Source: Candidatus Auribacterota bacterium
GTDB lineage: Bacteria > Auribacterota > JAFGBW01 > JAFGJP01
Direction of reading: 5' to 3'
DNA: 64,000 nt
NCBI GenBank assembly: GCA_023144635.1
Contig: JAGLFH010000062.1
Coordinates: forward strand, 62,001-126,000
Made by a program: the position numbers and the translations under genes. The first letter of the stretch is position 1, and each line of letters starts with the position of its first letter. Below are positions 25,032 through 62,657 of the stretch, one piece after another. The notes beneath the pieces were generated by a model. It searched no databases. It saw only the letters and a program-made list of their open reading frames with translations, and had not been told where the DNA came from.

Positions 25032-25538
25032 TTATGTTAGAGTTTTTTTTAATATCTGTTTCAAAAAGCTATGTTTCTCCAAATTTTTTATGTTATGCAG
25101 CAGTTTACCAAGAGAACGCGCCATTTTCTTAATATTTTCCATTCTTTCTGCAACAAATTTCTCATCACTGTCTTTTGCAACTTTTTTTTCTTTTATTTCC
25201 GAAACTGCTGCTTCTTCAAAAATATTTACTCTTCTTAATAAAGCATCAACAAGCCGTGTATTAAATATTTTCATAAAGTCAGCTTCTGCCTCATAGTAAT
25301 CGCGCCTTGTTCCTGCCTTCCATATTCTTTTAACTGCCCCCCATTTTAAAAGCTCCCTTACAGTAAGAGACACGGTTGCCTTGCTTACACCAAGACTATC
25401 TTTGATATCATCAAGACTTAGTTCATTAGGTGTTAAATACAAAAGGCCGTAGATCTGGCCAAGAACATGGCTGAAGCCAAAAAGGGTGCTAAGCTCACCC
25501 ATTTTTAAGATAAAAGCATATTTTTTTTTACTAGTCAT
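25032..25538 (-). CDS. GbsR/MarR-type transcriptional regulator
   Basis: 168 residues. The N-terminal part FSHVLGQIYGLLYLTPNELSLDDIKDSLGVSKATVSLTVRELLKWG is a winged helix of the GbsR type (split here: FSHVLGQIYGLLYL, then VSKATVSLTVRELLKWG). The C-terminal 70 residues are a charged helical dimerisation region. GbsR-type regulators are one-component repressors of osmoprotectant or envelope genes. The promoter just upstream has a highly ordered operator (25540-25573). The gene is 90 bases upstream of the flippase on the same strand, so it might regulate the polysaccharide run. Confidence 0.8.
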   Translation of the reverse strand: MTSKKKYAFILKMGELSTLFGFSHVLGQIYGLLYLTPNELSLDDIKDSLGVSKATVSLTVRELLKWGAVKRIWKAGTRRDYYEAEADFMKIFNTRLVDALLRRVNIFEEAAVSEIKEKKVAKDSDEKFVAERMENIKKMARSLGKLLHNIKNLEKHSFLKQILKKTLT

Positions 25539-25539
25539 A

Positions 25540-25603
25540 TTTAATACGTTTAATATGTATTAAACGTTCAATACATTATACAACAAAATAAGTACAAGTG
25601 CAA
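25540..25603 (-). promoter_or_regulatory. Promoter and phased operator of the GbsR-like gene
   Basis: On the minus strand, TTGCAC (25598-25603) and a perfect TATAAT (25575-25580) are spaced by 17 bases. Between the -10 and the ATG, four 7-base half-sites start at 25540, 25549, 25558 and 25567, exactly nine bases apart: TTTAATA, TTTAATA, TATTAAA, TTCAATA. The middle two are part of a perfect inverted repeat ACGTTTAATA/TATTAAACGT with a 2-base centre. A bound repressor would block the start site. The predicted leader is only about 30 bases and has no ribosome site. Confidence 0.65.
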
Positions 25604-25625
25604 GTATGCAGTCAGAAGGGTTTAA

Positions 25626-25810
25626 TAACAAAGTGGAGGGTAGCACAATCGACTTGCCTTTAGGTAAACACAGCTGAAATAATTATTCCGGTTTCCTTAA
25701 GAAAAGCATGGTGACAATGTGTAACTAGGGAAATATCTTCTGTATCTGTTTATTACCTTGTTATGAATGAGTATAAATTCATATTCAGATGTGTTTACAA
25801 AAATTTCAGG
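25626..25810. repeat. Small repeat element, copy 1 (uninterrupted)
   Basis: About 185 bases between the GbsR-like gene and the stop codon of the small membrane protein gene. It contains GCCTTTAGGTAAACACAG (from 25656), an inverted end pair GTAAACACAGCTGAA (25664-25678)/TTCAGATGTGTTTAC (25784-25798), an internal CCG at offset 24 and GGAAATAT at offset 65. The same blocks occur in the same order at 26291-26646, where GCCTTTAG is split by an insertion. It ends 12 bases from the stop codon, as the other copy does. Confidence 0.6.
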
Positions 25811-26044
25811 CTAGTTCAAAACATACTTAATAAGATGATATACAGAGAAGAACATAAAAATACTTACCAGTAAAAGTGACAGACCAAGCCCATAACGGTA
25901 TTTTATAGCATTTTCATCTGTTAAAAAAACACGGTTAGAATGTTCGCTGAGTTTTAAAAAAAGTTCCGGAAAAAATAACAGCATCATTGCAGAAAAAAGT
26001 GCAATAAAACCGGTAATGAAAAAAACTATATATATGGCGCCCAT
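25811..26044 (-). CDS. Small two-helix membrane protein
   Basis: 77 residues with two hydrophobic segments, IYIVFFITGFIALFSAMMLLF (about 4-24; first 20 shown by IYIVFFITGFIALFSAMMLL) and LGLSLLLVSIFMFFSVYHLI (about 52-71), joined by a charged loop SEHSNRVFLTDENAIKYRYG. No family is recognised. AAAGGA four bases before the ATG and a promoter-like pair at 26071-26100 support expression. It stands alone, between two related repeat elements. The function is unknown. Confidence 0.6.
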   Translation of the reverse strand: MGAIYIVFFITGFIALFSAMMLLFFPELFLKLSEHSNRVFLTDENAIKYRYGLGLSLLLVSIFMFFSVYHLIKYVLN

Positions 26045-26070
26045 AGTGTCCTTTCTTTTATAATTACTAG

Positions 26071-26100
26071 ATTATACATCTAAAGGATAACTTTTGGAAA
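26071..26100 (-). promoter_or_regulatory. Promoter of the small membrane protein gene
   Basis: On the minus strand TTTCCA (26095-26100), an 18-base spacer and a perfect TATAAT (26071-26076), about 27 bases before the ATG at 26044, with AAAGGA between. The -35 is only a 4/6 match. Confidence 0.45.
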
Positions 26101-26225
26101 GCGCTTTTTGAAAATATAATAGAACTATATAATTTACTTACTGAACTTGAAACATAAAGAGTATTAAATACATTTTTACTGTTAATTAAATATTTAACGA
26201 GTTTAGTGTATCATAAATGCGAGGC

Positions 26226-26292
26226 ATCAAATACGACGTTGTAAGTTTGTCCGCCAAAGGCGGATCCGTCCTTCGGCGGACAAGTATTTGAT
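26226..26292. repeat. Nested palindrome with CCGCC core
   Basis: Outer arms ATCAAATAC (26226-26234)/GTATTTGAT (26284-26292) and inner arms TTGTCCGCC (26247-26255)/GGCGGACAA (26275-26283), around AAAGGCGGATCCGTCCTTC. The CCGCC/GGCGGATCCG text recurs at 62485-62516. Copy 1 of the neighbouring repeat lacks this block, so it looks like a separate small insertion. Confidence 0.6.
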
Positions 26293-26646
26293 AACAAAGC
26301 AGATGTGATGCAATAGGTTCGCCTTTAGCCCATACTTCTCACCAATTGTTGTTGCGAAAAGAAGTAAATGGTTGTAGATGCGAGACATGTGAGTGGAAAC
26401 GATCGAAGGCGTATTTAACATACGTCAAGGAGTTTGCATGAGCATAACGACGCAAATGCAGACAGTTACTTCTTTGCAGTAGATAATTGGTGAGAAGCAT
26501 GGGTTAGGTAAACACAGTCAAATTAAACATACCGTTTACTTATAAAGCATTGAAAGTTTTATATGCTTTGGAAATATAATCTTTTATGTTATTTCTAATC
26601 ATAAAAATTATAACTTGTTTTTGGCTGTGTTTATAAAATATTTAAG
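26291..26646. repeat. Small repeat element, copy 2 (interrupted)
   Basis: Left part ATAACAAAG to GCCTTTAG (26291-26328) and right part GTAAACACAG to TGTGTTTAT (26508-26634) match copy 1 (25626-25810): CCG at offset 24 in both, GGAAATAT at offset 62 versus 65, and 12 bases between the element end and the stop codon of the neighbouring gene in both. The 175 bases at 26329-26503 interrupt it. Identity is moderate, so the two copies diverged long ago. Confidence 0.6.
26329..26503. mobile_element. 175-bp fold-back (MITE-like) insertion with TTAG duplication
   Basis: Terminal inverted repeats of about 38 bases begin CCCATACTTCTCACC (26329) and end GGTGAGAAGCATGGG (26503). The interior is also weakly palindromic, with the tip GCGTAT/ATACGTC near 26411-26426. 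It is flanked by TTAG on both sides (26325-26328 and 26504-26507), whereas copy 1 of the surrounding repeat has a single TTAG at this point. It encodes no protein. This pattern is what a transposed non-autonomous element leaves; the mobilising enzyme is not in the window. Confidence 0.7.
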
Positions 26647-28284
26647 TCACTGACGTTCTATAATTGTAGGCGTTACAAAGATCATAAGGTTTACTTTTTC
26701 TACAGCATCACGCTTATTTTTAAAAGCCCATCCAAGAATCGGAATATCACCAAGAATCGGAAGTTTAGAGATTTTTTTAACGGTTCTTTCTTTTATAAGC
26801 CCTCCTATTACAACAGTTTCACTGCTTTTTACAATTGCCTGAGTGCTGGCCTCACGCGTTAATAGTCGGTTAACAGTATATCCCGTAGATCCTTTCACTT
26901 CAGGCCCGATAGAAGTTACAGAAGGACGTATAACAAGCTTTACATACCCATCAGCCATTACCTGCGGGACTACCTGTAGATAAACACCAACAGGTTCATA
27001 ACGATCAAGTGTCTCTGTTGTAGTCGTATCTACAGTAGTCGACTTCAGAATAGGAACTCTTTCACCGACAAGAATACTTGCCTCATGATTATGAAGTGTC
27101 AGTATTGTCGGGTTTGATATTATTTCTGTATTATCGTTTGCTTTTAAAGCATTTAACACCACATTAAAATCACTTACACTTAAAGTTGCTGTTTCTACAT
27201 TTGATAAAGACAATGTCCTACCAATACTAGTAATATCTATAATCTCTTGCTCACTATCAAACATTTTTCCTGACGTAGTATAATCCACTATAGAATAACC
27301 AGTAACTGGATCTGTCATAAGTTTCACACCTGTTGAATCTTTAAATAATTCTTCAGAATCATAAGAAAGAGGATTATCTCTCTTATCCTTACTACTAAGA
27401 GAAATCAAATCTGCATTTGTATTTGGAGAAACCTTTCTTGTGTCATTACCACTTAGAGTTCTTTCTTTAGTATTAGTTAAATCATCTGATATAACTTTTG
27501 AAGCTTTTGAAGATCCAATAATTAAACCACCATCACCCTTTTCACCACCTCCAAGAAAATCCCACTTAATACCAAAGTCAAAGGTATCATCCATTGTCAT
27601 TTCAACTATTTTTGTATCAATCAGGACCTGAGGAGGAAGAAAATCAAGACGGCTTATCAGCATCTGTATTCTTTCTATCTTTTCAGGTATATCAGAAACA
27701 ACAAGAATACGTGTTACTTCTTCTTTTTCTGATTTTTCTCTTTCTGAAGATTTCAAACCTGGAGCTGAAGCAGATAACTCTCCGCCTTTATAACCACCGC
27801 GTATGGTTTTTTTAAGAGAAAAGATCTTTCCGCGAGATGACAATTCATTTTTTAGTATAGGGATCACATCATCAGCATTTATATATTTTAACTCAAAAAC
27901 AAAAGTAAGGAGCTCCTGTTTTGAAACTATCATCTGTTTTATATCTGCTTGTTCTTTAAGTTTAGAAATGGTATTAACAGTTAAAACATTTTCAACTATC
28001 TTGTACCCAAATCCGTTTGAAGTTATAACTGCATCAAGTGCTGAGTTAAAAGATACATCATCAAGCTTAATTGTTACCGTTCCTATGACCTGCTCTCCGA
28101 TAATATAGTTTAGGTTTCTTGCTGTTGCAAGCACACGGATGACATCAGCAATATCTGCATCTACAAAATCAATGGAAATACTATCCTCTTCCTGTCCATT
28201 CAAGTTCGATACAGGAATCAAAAAACTAATAGAGAAAACAATAAGAAACACTGTCATCAGTCTATTTTTCCATTTTAATTTCAT
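26647..28284 (-). CDS. pilQ: Type IV pilus secretin PilQ
   Basis: 545 residues from the ATG at 28284, which has GGAGG five bases upstream; the track start at 28296 lies at that ribosome site and is rejected. A signal peptide (LMTVFLIVFSISFLIPVS) is followed by a secretin/TonB short N-terminal domain (SIDFVDADIADVIRVLA), an N1-type domain (TFVFELKYINADDVIPILK), and the C-terminal secretin channel with VGERVPI, VGVYLQVVPQV, SSETVVIGGLI and LPILGDIPILGWAFK. It forms the outer-membrane ring for the pilus. It overlaps the pilP-like gene by 23 bases. About 100 polar residues (GGGEKGDGG to MFDSEQ) are inserted before the channel, longer than usual. Confidence 0.92.
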   Translation of the reverse strand: MKLKWKNRLMTVFLIVFSISFLIPVSNLNGQEEDSISIDFVDADIADVIRVLATARNLNYIIGEQVIGTVTIKLDDVSFNSALDAVITSNGFGYKIVENVLTVNTISKLKEQADIKQMIVSKQELLTFVFELKYINADDVIPILKNELSSRGKIFSLKKTIRGGYKGGELSASAPGLKSSEREKSEKEEVTRILVVSDIPEKIERIQMLISRLDFLPPQVLIDTKIVEMTMDDTFDFGIKWDFLGGGEKGDGGLIIGSSKASKVISDDLTNTKERTLSGNDTRKVSPNTNADLISLSSKDKRDNPLSYDSEELFKDSTGVKLMTDPVTGYSIVDYTTSGKMFDSEQEIIDITSIGRTLSLSNVETATLSVSDFNVVLNALKANDNTEIISNPTILTLHNHEASILVGERVPILKSTTVDTTTTETLDRYEPVGVYLQVVPQVMADGYVKLVIRPSVTSIGPEVKGSTGYTVNRLLTREASTQAIVKSSETVVIGGLIKERTVKKISKLPILGDIPILGWAFKNKRDAVEKVNLMIFVTPTIIERQ

Positions 28285-29014
28285 AAGTACCTCCATTTGA
28301 TTCTAAAATAACTTTATCTTTTTCTATTGTCTTTATTTTGTAAGTTCTCTTTCCATCACTCAACGTATCACCAACACGCAGCATTTTTCTATCAATAACC
28401 GCGATAAAAGTACTTCCTATTCTTGATATACCTGAAAGAGAAAACAATGCTTTTCTTAAGTCATACTCTATGCCATCTTTCTCAAGTATAACTGAATCCA
28501 TTAATATTTTTTTTACTTTATATGATCTTGCTCCGCTTGAAATAGTATTTCCTTCAATGAACTTTTGTCTGTTTATTTCAGCTGTATAACCATTTGCTGT
28601 TCTTGTAATATTGGTCAATTTAAAAAGTGAATCAATATCACTATCAGGCTGCAGCACATGAGTTTCATCTATATGCTCAATATTATCTTCAGAAATTTTG
28701 TGAAAAAACGGATCCTGCCCCCATCCAGCTTTTGCTATTCTTTTCTGCTCTTCCATTGCTTCTTTTTTAAGAGTTGCTTTGCTTGATCTTGTGCTTAAGG
28801 GAATGGCAGAGTCATCAACTGTAGTTGTTGCAGATACCACTTTCTGAGCGTCCTTAACTATCTCTTCAGAAGTTTTTCCGCCTTCAGGCGATTCAGCAGG
28901 CGTGCTTACAGGCTTTTGTTTTTTAATTGTACTCATTGCATTAAAAATAAAATAAATAAGGACAAAAACAAGAACTACAGTAATTGAGATATTTCTTTTA
29001 TCTTTTTTAGTCAT
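28262..29014 (-). CDS. PilP/GspC-like inner-membrane protein with duplicated domain
   Basis: 250 residues: a short cytoplasmic start, one membrane helix (ITVVLVFVLIYFIFNAM), a long flexible linker, the motif GWGQDPFF (about 98-105), then two related domains of about 55 residues. Each has an LF-L-x-I-R strand, an IDR/INRQ turn, xVGDTLSDGxRTYKIK and VILExDGxxYxI. Similar beta domains occur in PilP and in the GspC homology region, which contact the secretin. Its place between pilO and pilQ fits a periplasmic linker. The duplication is unusual for PilP. Confidence 0.75.
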   Translation of the reverse strand: MTKKDKRNISITVVLVFVLIYFIFNAMSTIKKQKPVSTPAESPEGGKTSEEIVKDAQKVVSATTTVDDSAIPLSTRSSKATLKKEAMEEQKRIAKAGWGQDPFFHKISEDNIEHIDETHVLQPDSDIDSLFKLTNITRTANGYTAEINRQKFIEGNTISSGARSYKVKKILMDSVILEKDGIEYDLRKALFSLSGISRIGSTFIAVIDRKMLRVGDTLSDGKRTYKIKTIEKDKVILESNGGTYEIKMEK

Positions 29015-51133: not shown

Positions 51134-51608
51134 GAAAATCCTCCAATTCTAAGTAATATAAAGTAAATATTATTAAGTAATATATATATAATAAATACTA
51201 AAAAAATACTAGTAAAATTATGTATATATTAGATAAAAAATCGTAGTATTATTATACATTGCAATAAAGAAAGTTAATGAATACAATATAAAGCTTTTAT
51301 ATCCTGTATTTTTCATAAAAATAGACGATTGGGAGTTTTTATTACTTTTTAGCAGAAAATTTTAGGAAAAGCATAAGACAAAAGATTTGTATACACTTTG
51401 TTCTCGTGCTATTTTATAGGAAAAGGAAGATTTTATTCGTCTCTTTTTACCAGAGGCAAACGGATTATACCGCATCTCCTTCGTTGTCAGTCATTCGCAG
51501 TATGTTATACAGCTTCTTGTCTGACGCCTTGTATCTGCGATATACTCCATTCGTGAAAAAAACAGAACGTTTTTTTATAGTTTTTTTAAGGATAAAATGG
51601 AGGATTTA
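51134..51608. other. AT-rich divergent gap dnaN/glyS, weak origin candidate
   Basis: 475 bases. From 51140 to 51260 nearly all bases are A/T (for example TAATATATATATAATAAATA), a possible unwinding zone. Genes point away on both sides (dnaN to serS left, glyS onward right). No cluster of TTATNCACA boxes was found. Near glyS, TCGCAG (51495)/CTGCGA (51535) with ATACAG/CTTGTAT inside forms a stem that may be part of the glyS leader. A T-box was not recognised. Confidence 0.35.
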
Positions 51609-62465: not shown

Positions 62466-62657
62466 ATAAGTGCCTAAAGTGCACTTCCGCCCGAGGCGGA
62501 TCCGCCTTTGGCGGAAAAGTTTTTATTAAAGTACTTAAAGTTAAAGGTGTGCAAAAAACGCATATACTTATTTTACTAATGTTCTCTCTTTATTTTTATA
62601 CTGTGCGTCAGCACTCCTTAACTTTATACACTTTAGCTCACTTTGAATTTTAAACTT
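62466..62657 (-). repeat. 140-bp 3'-end repeat, copy B, with CCGCC palindrome inside
   Basis: On the minus strand it begins two or three bases after the pyrK stop: AAGTTTAAAATTCAAAGTGA, TTAAGGAGTGCTGACGCAC, then GCGTTTTTTGCACACC and CTTTAAGTACTTTAA, ending near TTTAGGCACTTA. Between the last two blocks lies an extra CCGCC palindrome (TTCCGCC/GGCGGAA at 62485-62516), which copy A lacks. It therefore appears to have been inserted into the repeat. Confidence 0.65.

Follow-up and report, generated by a model that had tools for sequence, protein, structure and literature searches.

We analysed a 64,000-nucleotide stretch of the genome of a Candidatus Auribacterota bacterium (contig JAGLFH010000062.1, positions 62,001 to 126,000; hereafter the window), in which two repeats adjoin the 3' ends of a short ORF and of a secretin gene (Table 1). 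An earlier note, made from the sequence alone, had placed the pair near two gene ends, and this is where they lie: copy 1 is at the stop codon of the 77-aa ORF, its right end overlapping the CTAG (25811-25814) that contains the TAG stop, and copy 2 ends with ...TATAAAATATTTAAG, a single base away from the secretin stop codon. They represent 3' parts of a single dispersed family, called here type C, and the right arm of copy 1 (...TTTCAGGCTAG) matches other type C right ends. Copy 2 is interrupted by a 175-bp hairpin, element A, of a second kind, type D. A third member is flanked by two divergent ORFs, whose 5' ends face it, and is an exception to the stop-codon rule described below. A search of the window for tRNAs found none.

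Table 1. Features of the window (R1 and R2 are covariance models described in the text).
Feature	Position	Strand	Basis
Copy 1, decayed, internally deleted type C	25593..25814, left edge approximate	+ (folded/model strand)	R1 25525-25671, 26.1 bits, E 2e-4
77-aa ORF, membrane-like sequence; TAG stop coincides with copy 1 right end	25811..26044	-	translation
Copy 2, type C interrupted by element A	26182..26646	+	R1 26192-26336, 86.7 bits
Palindromic repeat TTGTCCGCCAAAGGCGGA...CGGACAA in copy 2 apical loop	26247..26283		inverted repeat I14
TTAG, left copy of 4-bp target duplication	26325-26328		sequence
Element A, 175-bp type D hairpin inside copy 2	26329..26503	+	inverted-repeat arms, whole-element fold
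Conserved hairpin core of element A	26356..26477	+	R2 90 bits, E 4e-19 (A is among the 18 R2 training sequences)
TTAG, right copy of 4-bp target duplication	26504-26507		sequence
Secretin gene (type II/III secretion-type, PilQ-like), ends at copy 2	26647..28296	-	ORF; Pfam Secretin PF00263, E 2e-45
Third member, type C hairpin core	51442..51559	-	R1 103.5 bits, R2 53.1 bits; ORFs

The sequence reading of the earlier note was exact, base for base. The empty site, the 18-mer GCCTTTAGGTAAACACAG, runs unbroken through copy 1 at 25656-25673 on the forward strand, with its TTAG at 25660-25663. In copy 2 the filled site consists of GCCTTTAG (26321-26328), then element A (26329-26503), which begins CCCATACTTCTCACC and ends GGTGAGAAGCATGGG, and then TTAGGTAAACACAG (26504-26517). 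Rejoined at the duplication, the flanks of copy 2 read ...GCCTTTAGGTAAACACAGTCAAATTA..., where the equivalent in copy 1 is ...GCCTTTAGGTAAACACAGCTGAAATA...; the uninterrupted junction also occurs in other members of the family, as GCCTTTAGGTAAACA, GCCTTTGGTAAAA and similar sequences. That a 175-bp inverted-repeat element was inserted here and duplicated 4 bp, TTAG, is supported by the empty sites of copy 1 and of these other members. One could suppose instead a coincidental hairpin and two unrelated short repeats, as outside the 18-mer copies 1 and 2 are only ~76% alike over 34-50 nt. We give this almost no credence: a family model built without either copy matches both (86.7 bits for copy 2 and 26.1 for copy 1), as well as element A, which refutes a chance origin and shows the two copies to be related. 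The interpretation given earlier was thus right about the insertion and its duplication; it missed the mobility of the repeats themselves, their systematic position and orientation at stop codons, and a superfamily that extends over many phyla.

Element A as a whole is predicted to fold into a single long hairpin (-76.7 kcal/mol), and its terminal arms pair over 22 nt with 91% complementarity. It was found independently by R1 (26354-26488, 25.5 bits, E 3e-4), a covariance model made from 11 aligned type C members, none of them from the window. Since this model was built from type C only, its match to element A indicates that the insert and its host element are relatives; the 175-bp insert is a small mobile hairpin that jumped into a hairpin of the same superfamily. 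Elsewhere in its own genome, element A was found by a genome search as only one partial copy (52 nt, 88%).

Types C and D are branches of one superfamily, with a common hairpin core of 100-125 nt and fixed internal loops. Type C elements are ~260-290 bp long, with 4-bp duplications that are mostly YTAR. Their hairpin of ~100 nt has conserved internal loops and, among the 11 members, compensatory changes in 16 of 33 pairs; beyond it lie a second branch and terminal arms CCTGNATATTTCAC...GTGAAATATNCAGG. A search that allowed up to 3 mismatches located the type C end pattern 103 times in the genome and a reversed control 14 times. Type D comprises longer members, including element A, in which the core GATRCGAGGC...ATAACGAAGCAGAT and the loops are kept and the closing stems vary from copy to copy. 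Compensatory changes affect 34 of 39 type D pairs, and the covariation score is 0.691, compared with 0.240 for shuffled and at most 0.16 for slid controls, which keep the relatedness of the sequences; these figures lean towards structure, because the same alignment also supplied the structure, but we think that the gap is too large for this bias alone. The elements carry terminal inverted repeats, are shorter than 500 bp, and contain neither a transposase ORF nor any internal ORF of 80 aa or more.

Other repeats seem to use the apical loops of type C elements as insertion sites. One, a palindromic GTCCGCCAAAGGCGGA...GGCGGAC repeat present at 26247-26283 and 62486-62524, occupies this loop in several C elements; in other C copies the same loop holds a hairpin CATCCCGGAC...GATCCGGGATCC, and apical insertions of the same or different hairpins were seen in type C loci L025, L033, L055 and L056. 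There are also palindromic 'solo end' forms of 26-36 bp. Palindromes of ~34 bp made of two type C ends alone (TTAACCTGCATTTTTCATGAAATATACAGGTTAG) were noted at L303:2491-2524 and L306:1040-1073, one of which closely follows a long ORF; the solo-end forms probably arose by internal deletion. Some type D elements (L106, L109, L110, L111 and L115) end in a second palindrome, GGACAGACTCCGTCC, resembling the REP of another family. Close pairs of type D hairpins in the same orientation occur at L160:3412-3785, L156:7731-8056 and L154:8525-8778. At L158:4681-5763 and L158:9265-9993, RHS-repeat-like C-terminal pieces begin 3 nt past the right side of type D hairpins, and these hairpins may lie at a tip-exchange junction.

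We analysed the flanks of the 29 type C elements with a recognisable outer stem. Identical 4-mers stand on both sides of 9 of them (2.34 expected by shuffling, P ~5e-5), a test that is somewhat idealised, as the boundary finder favours the consensus end and misplaced one clear CTAA/CTAA case (L217). The left and right 4-mers vary together among copies (CTAA/CTAA, TTAG/TTAG and TTCA/TTCA, with TTAA also seen), and YTAR is present at 13 of the 29 left ends and 15 of the 29 right ends. In type D, clean duplications are rare, being mostly absent or decayed, and this counts against a MITE-like reading.

About half of the elements have one end at a stop codon, and it is nearly always the same, right, end. 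In the element's own genome, the end nearest a gene end was the right one in 17 cases and the left one in 2 for type C, and in 18 and 6 cases, respectively, for type D; at these stop codons the gene is antisense to the model strand. Copy 2 obeys the rule once the 179 bp added by element A are subtracted, and the partial copy of A, on contig C24, lies directly after a TGA. Because the rule was derived from own-genome data, we examined a further 60 elements, drawn from four other genomes: 26 right ends and 3 left ends lay at most 15 nt from a stop codon (P=1.5e-5), and 31 and 15 at most 60 nt (P=0.026), a test that is nearly, not wholly, fresh, as single loci of these genomes were already in an earlier sample of 74 elements (26 right and 15 left ends at most 60 nt away). 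For ORF calling we simply took the longest frame. The model strand is also the one that folds better. G-U pairs far outnumber A-C pairs on it (36:0, 56:13 and 88:20), and its RNA fold was the more stable in 16 of 17 cases (mean -50.2 versus -37.5 kcal/mol).

The covariance models locate the superfamily at ~50 places in its own genome, where R1 gives 56 matches at E up to 1, including a few reverse-strand echoes of the near-palindrome. Of 43 genomes from the same phylum, 12 contain elements by model R2, which gave one weak match among the 15 genomes from other phyla in that sample. A first core pattern, searched over GTDB, was too strict and gave 0 matches; the exact core pattern then used was found in at least 119 stretches, which do not amount to a census, and single bins may be contaminated. 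Among the matches listed, the titles name Aminicenantes, Deltaproteobacteria, Rokubacteria, Pseudomonas, Verrucomicrobia, Omnitrophota, Selenomonadales, Clostridia, Bacteroidetes, Kaiserbacteria and others. In 20 of these genomes, picked because each contains a match, R2 found 1-131 places per genome; the isolate Geothermobacter hydrogeniphilus HR-1 has 92, and Guyparkeria hydrothermalis, another cultured carrier, has 14. Aminicenantes contain a full-length element of the type C plan, and the Rokubacteria copies are mostly 71-97% identical, with flanks near background. Viral contigs gave 0 exact matches.

With moderate confidence, we attribute the insertion, 4-bp duplications, shared conserved hairpin, dispersal and oriented stop-codon position observed here to non-autonomous MITE-like elements of one superfamily, whose movement is driven in trans by a transposase cutting with a 4-bp stagger and preferring YTAR. 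Such an enzyme, presumably of the DDE type, would duplicate the 4 bp between its cuts, and the conserved core may be bound by the transposase or by a host factor. Since YTAR contains TAA or TAG, insertion at the last codon would re-create the stop codon, leaving the gene intact and allowing the insertion to survive; this neutrality could account for the position. Element A would have used a TTAG within an older C element, leaving the readable filled and empty pair. A palindromic target cannot by itself give an orientation bias, and our best guess is that the bias comes from selection against a very stable hairpin in mRNA. The conservation of the loops across phyla exceeds what a plain MITE needs and counts against a plain-MITE reading. 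It is possible, though unlikely, that a strand-specific mechanism instead places the superfamily at stop codons in a single orientation, the antisense strand being recognized in folded, single-stranded form, as DNA or RNA, and a new enzyme serving the elements.

The earlier note had asked for a transposase with matching ends, and none was found: matches to the type C end pattern, viewed with 1-4.5 kb of context, lie among ordinary genes without a transposase, and a lost or distant parent is possible. We searched the 59 genomes scanned for elements for IS5-type (DDE_Tnp_1), Y1/RAYT and integron integrase genes, and no class co-occurred significantly with the elements. The 12 carriers include 6 with DDE_Tnp_1 and the 31 non-carriers 18 (P 0.74), and the own genome has a single partial match. 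The strand asymmetry would also suit single-strand transposition by a Y1 enzyme (IS200/IS605 or RAYT), which would excise the folded strand and insert it 3' of a YTAR, the right YTAR then being part of the element. One strand does fold much better, by both pair counts and energy, the own genome has eight Y1 genes, and the close same-orientation hairpin pairs recall REP clusters. However, the left and right 4-mers co-vary from copy to copy, a pattern better explained by a staggered-cut transposase than by a Y1 enzyme; REP-type GTAG/GGAG flanks were seen in 0 of 82 elements, the own RAYT genes are flanked by other palindromes, and 10 of 12 carriers have Y1 genes, as do 23 of 31 non-carriers (P 0.70), all of which makes this route doubtful. 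Still less probable is that an integron-type tyrosine recombinase uses the elements as attC-like sites, even though it is structure, not sequence, that is kept, and the folded bottom strand and the position after a stop codon are as in integron cassettes. Both integron integrase genes of the own genome (TIGR02249, 458 and 441 bits; L161:489-1644 and L162:2438-3785) each have a type D hairpin after them, in the same orientation, and these hairpins have arms in common (GTCCGYGGTTTTCAC). The integrase loci of relatives, however, lack the hairpin, 4 of the 12 carriers and 8 of the 31 non-carriers have an integrase, the RYYYAAC / GTTRRRY motifs were found at the ends of 0 of 82 elements, the neighbours are ordinary genes rather than cassettes, and 4-bp duplications are not an integron product. 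Same-orientation runs that might have been cassette arrays, such as that on contig C54, proved to be ordinary genes (MreB-like, signal-peptidase) with elements at their ends.

A role as RNA at gene ends, as a structured RNA, a mobile 3' UTR terminator or an antisense small RNA, was also considered. It would fit the strong covariation and the position right after stop codons, and similar Geobacter elements have been termed predicted short RNA elements (PMC2700814). Yet the stable fold belongs to the strand antisense to the gene, so that a main role in mRNA is unlikely, and the duplications and nested copies show mobility. T-runs were not enriched on either side of the elements (4.41 and 4.29 T per 12), and classical terminators were rejected on this ground. 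No element in the window or in loci from 13 further sources matched Rfam 15 at the gathering score, the matches in those further loci being only tRNAs and a fluoride riboswitch that lie away from the elements; permissive Rfam scans gave nothing credible, and the 'skipping-rope' RNA motif had no Rfam match on these loci. On balance we hold an RNA role to be improbable, and return to MITE-like elements moved in trans.

As such, we class the elements as a new variant. Like bacterial MITEs, for example Chunjie of Geobacter uraniireducens (reviewed in PMC10969869), they are under 500 bp, lack ORFs, have terminal inverted repeats and short direct duplications, and are intergenic, with many copies and size variants. 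Unlike MITEs, they share an internal-loop hairpin core among families with different ends, across phyla, and lie at an exact stop-codon position in one orientation; no parent IS was identified. IS5 makes a 4-bp target duplication with a YTAR preference (PMC10359306), as the elements do, but no IS5-type gene with these ends was found; the shared motif offers an IS5-like enzyme as a lead and falls short of an assignment. REP/BIME sequences with their RAYT are likewise palindromic, extragenic, often clustered and strand-asymmetric, but the present elements are longer, lack a GTAG-type flank and a Y1 link, and have 4-bp duplications. Integron attC sites also conserve structure over variable sequence, fold from the bottom strand and directly follow stop codons; the elements differ in having no R/L box consensus, cassette arrays or integrase link.

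Among the closest published counterparts are the predicted short RNA elements of Geobacter metallireducens, with the central palindrome GRCGTAGCGCTGCTACGCC (PMC2700814, Figure S1). This palindrome equals the apical stem of the deltaproteobacterial element L221 (GGCGTAGCAGCGCTACGCC), exactly in one copy, and by this sequence likeness the published elements are probably the same type D. They are multicopy and intergenic, as ours are; that paper gives them for Geobacter species and Desulfotalea only, as RNAs, and mentions no duplications, stop-codon rule or mechanism. The hairpins had thus probably been noted already in one lineage. A literature search for the core letters gave only three papers, all unrelated. 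The searchable literature, which excludes most subscription papers, seems to contain no description of the superfamily, its mobility or the stop-codon rule; the superfamily is apparently uncatalogued.

The nested pair in the window is a clean, readable insertion event of this hairpin superfamily. Abundant across phyla and without a curated family that we could find, the elements mark gene ends with base precision, and they are likely prone to misreading as terminators or small RNAs. If strand-specific recognition at stop codons were true, it would be a new kind of insertion specificity. The elements offer a direct test of how mobile DNA reaches stop codons in one orientation.
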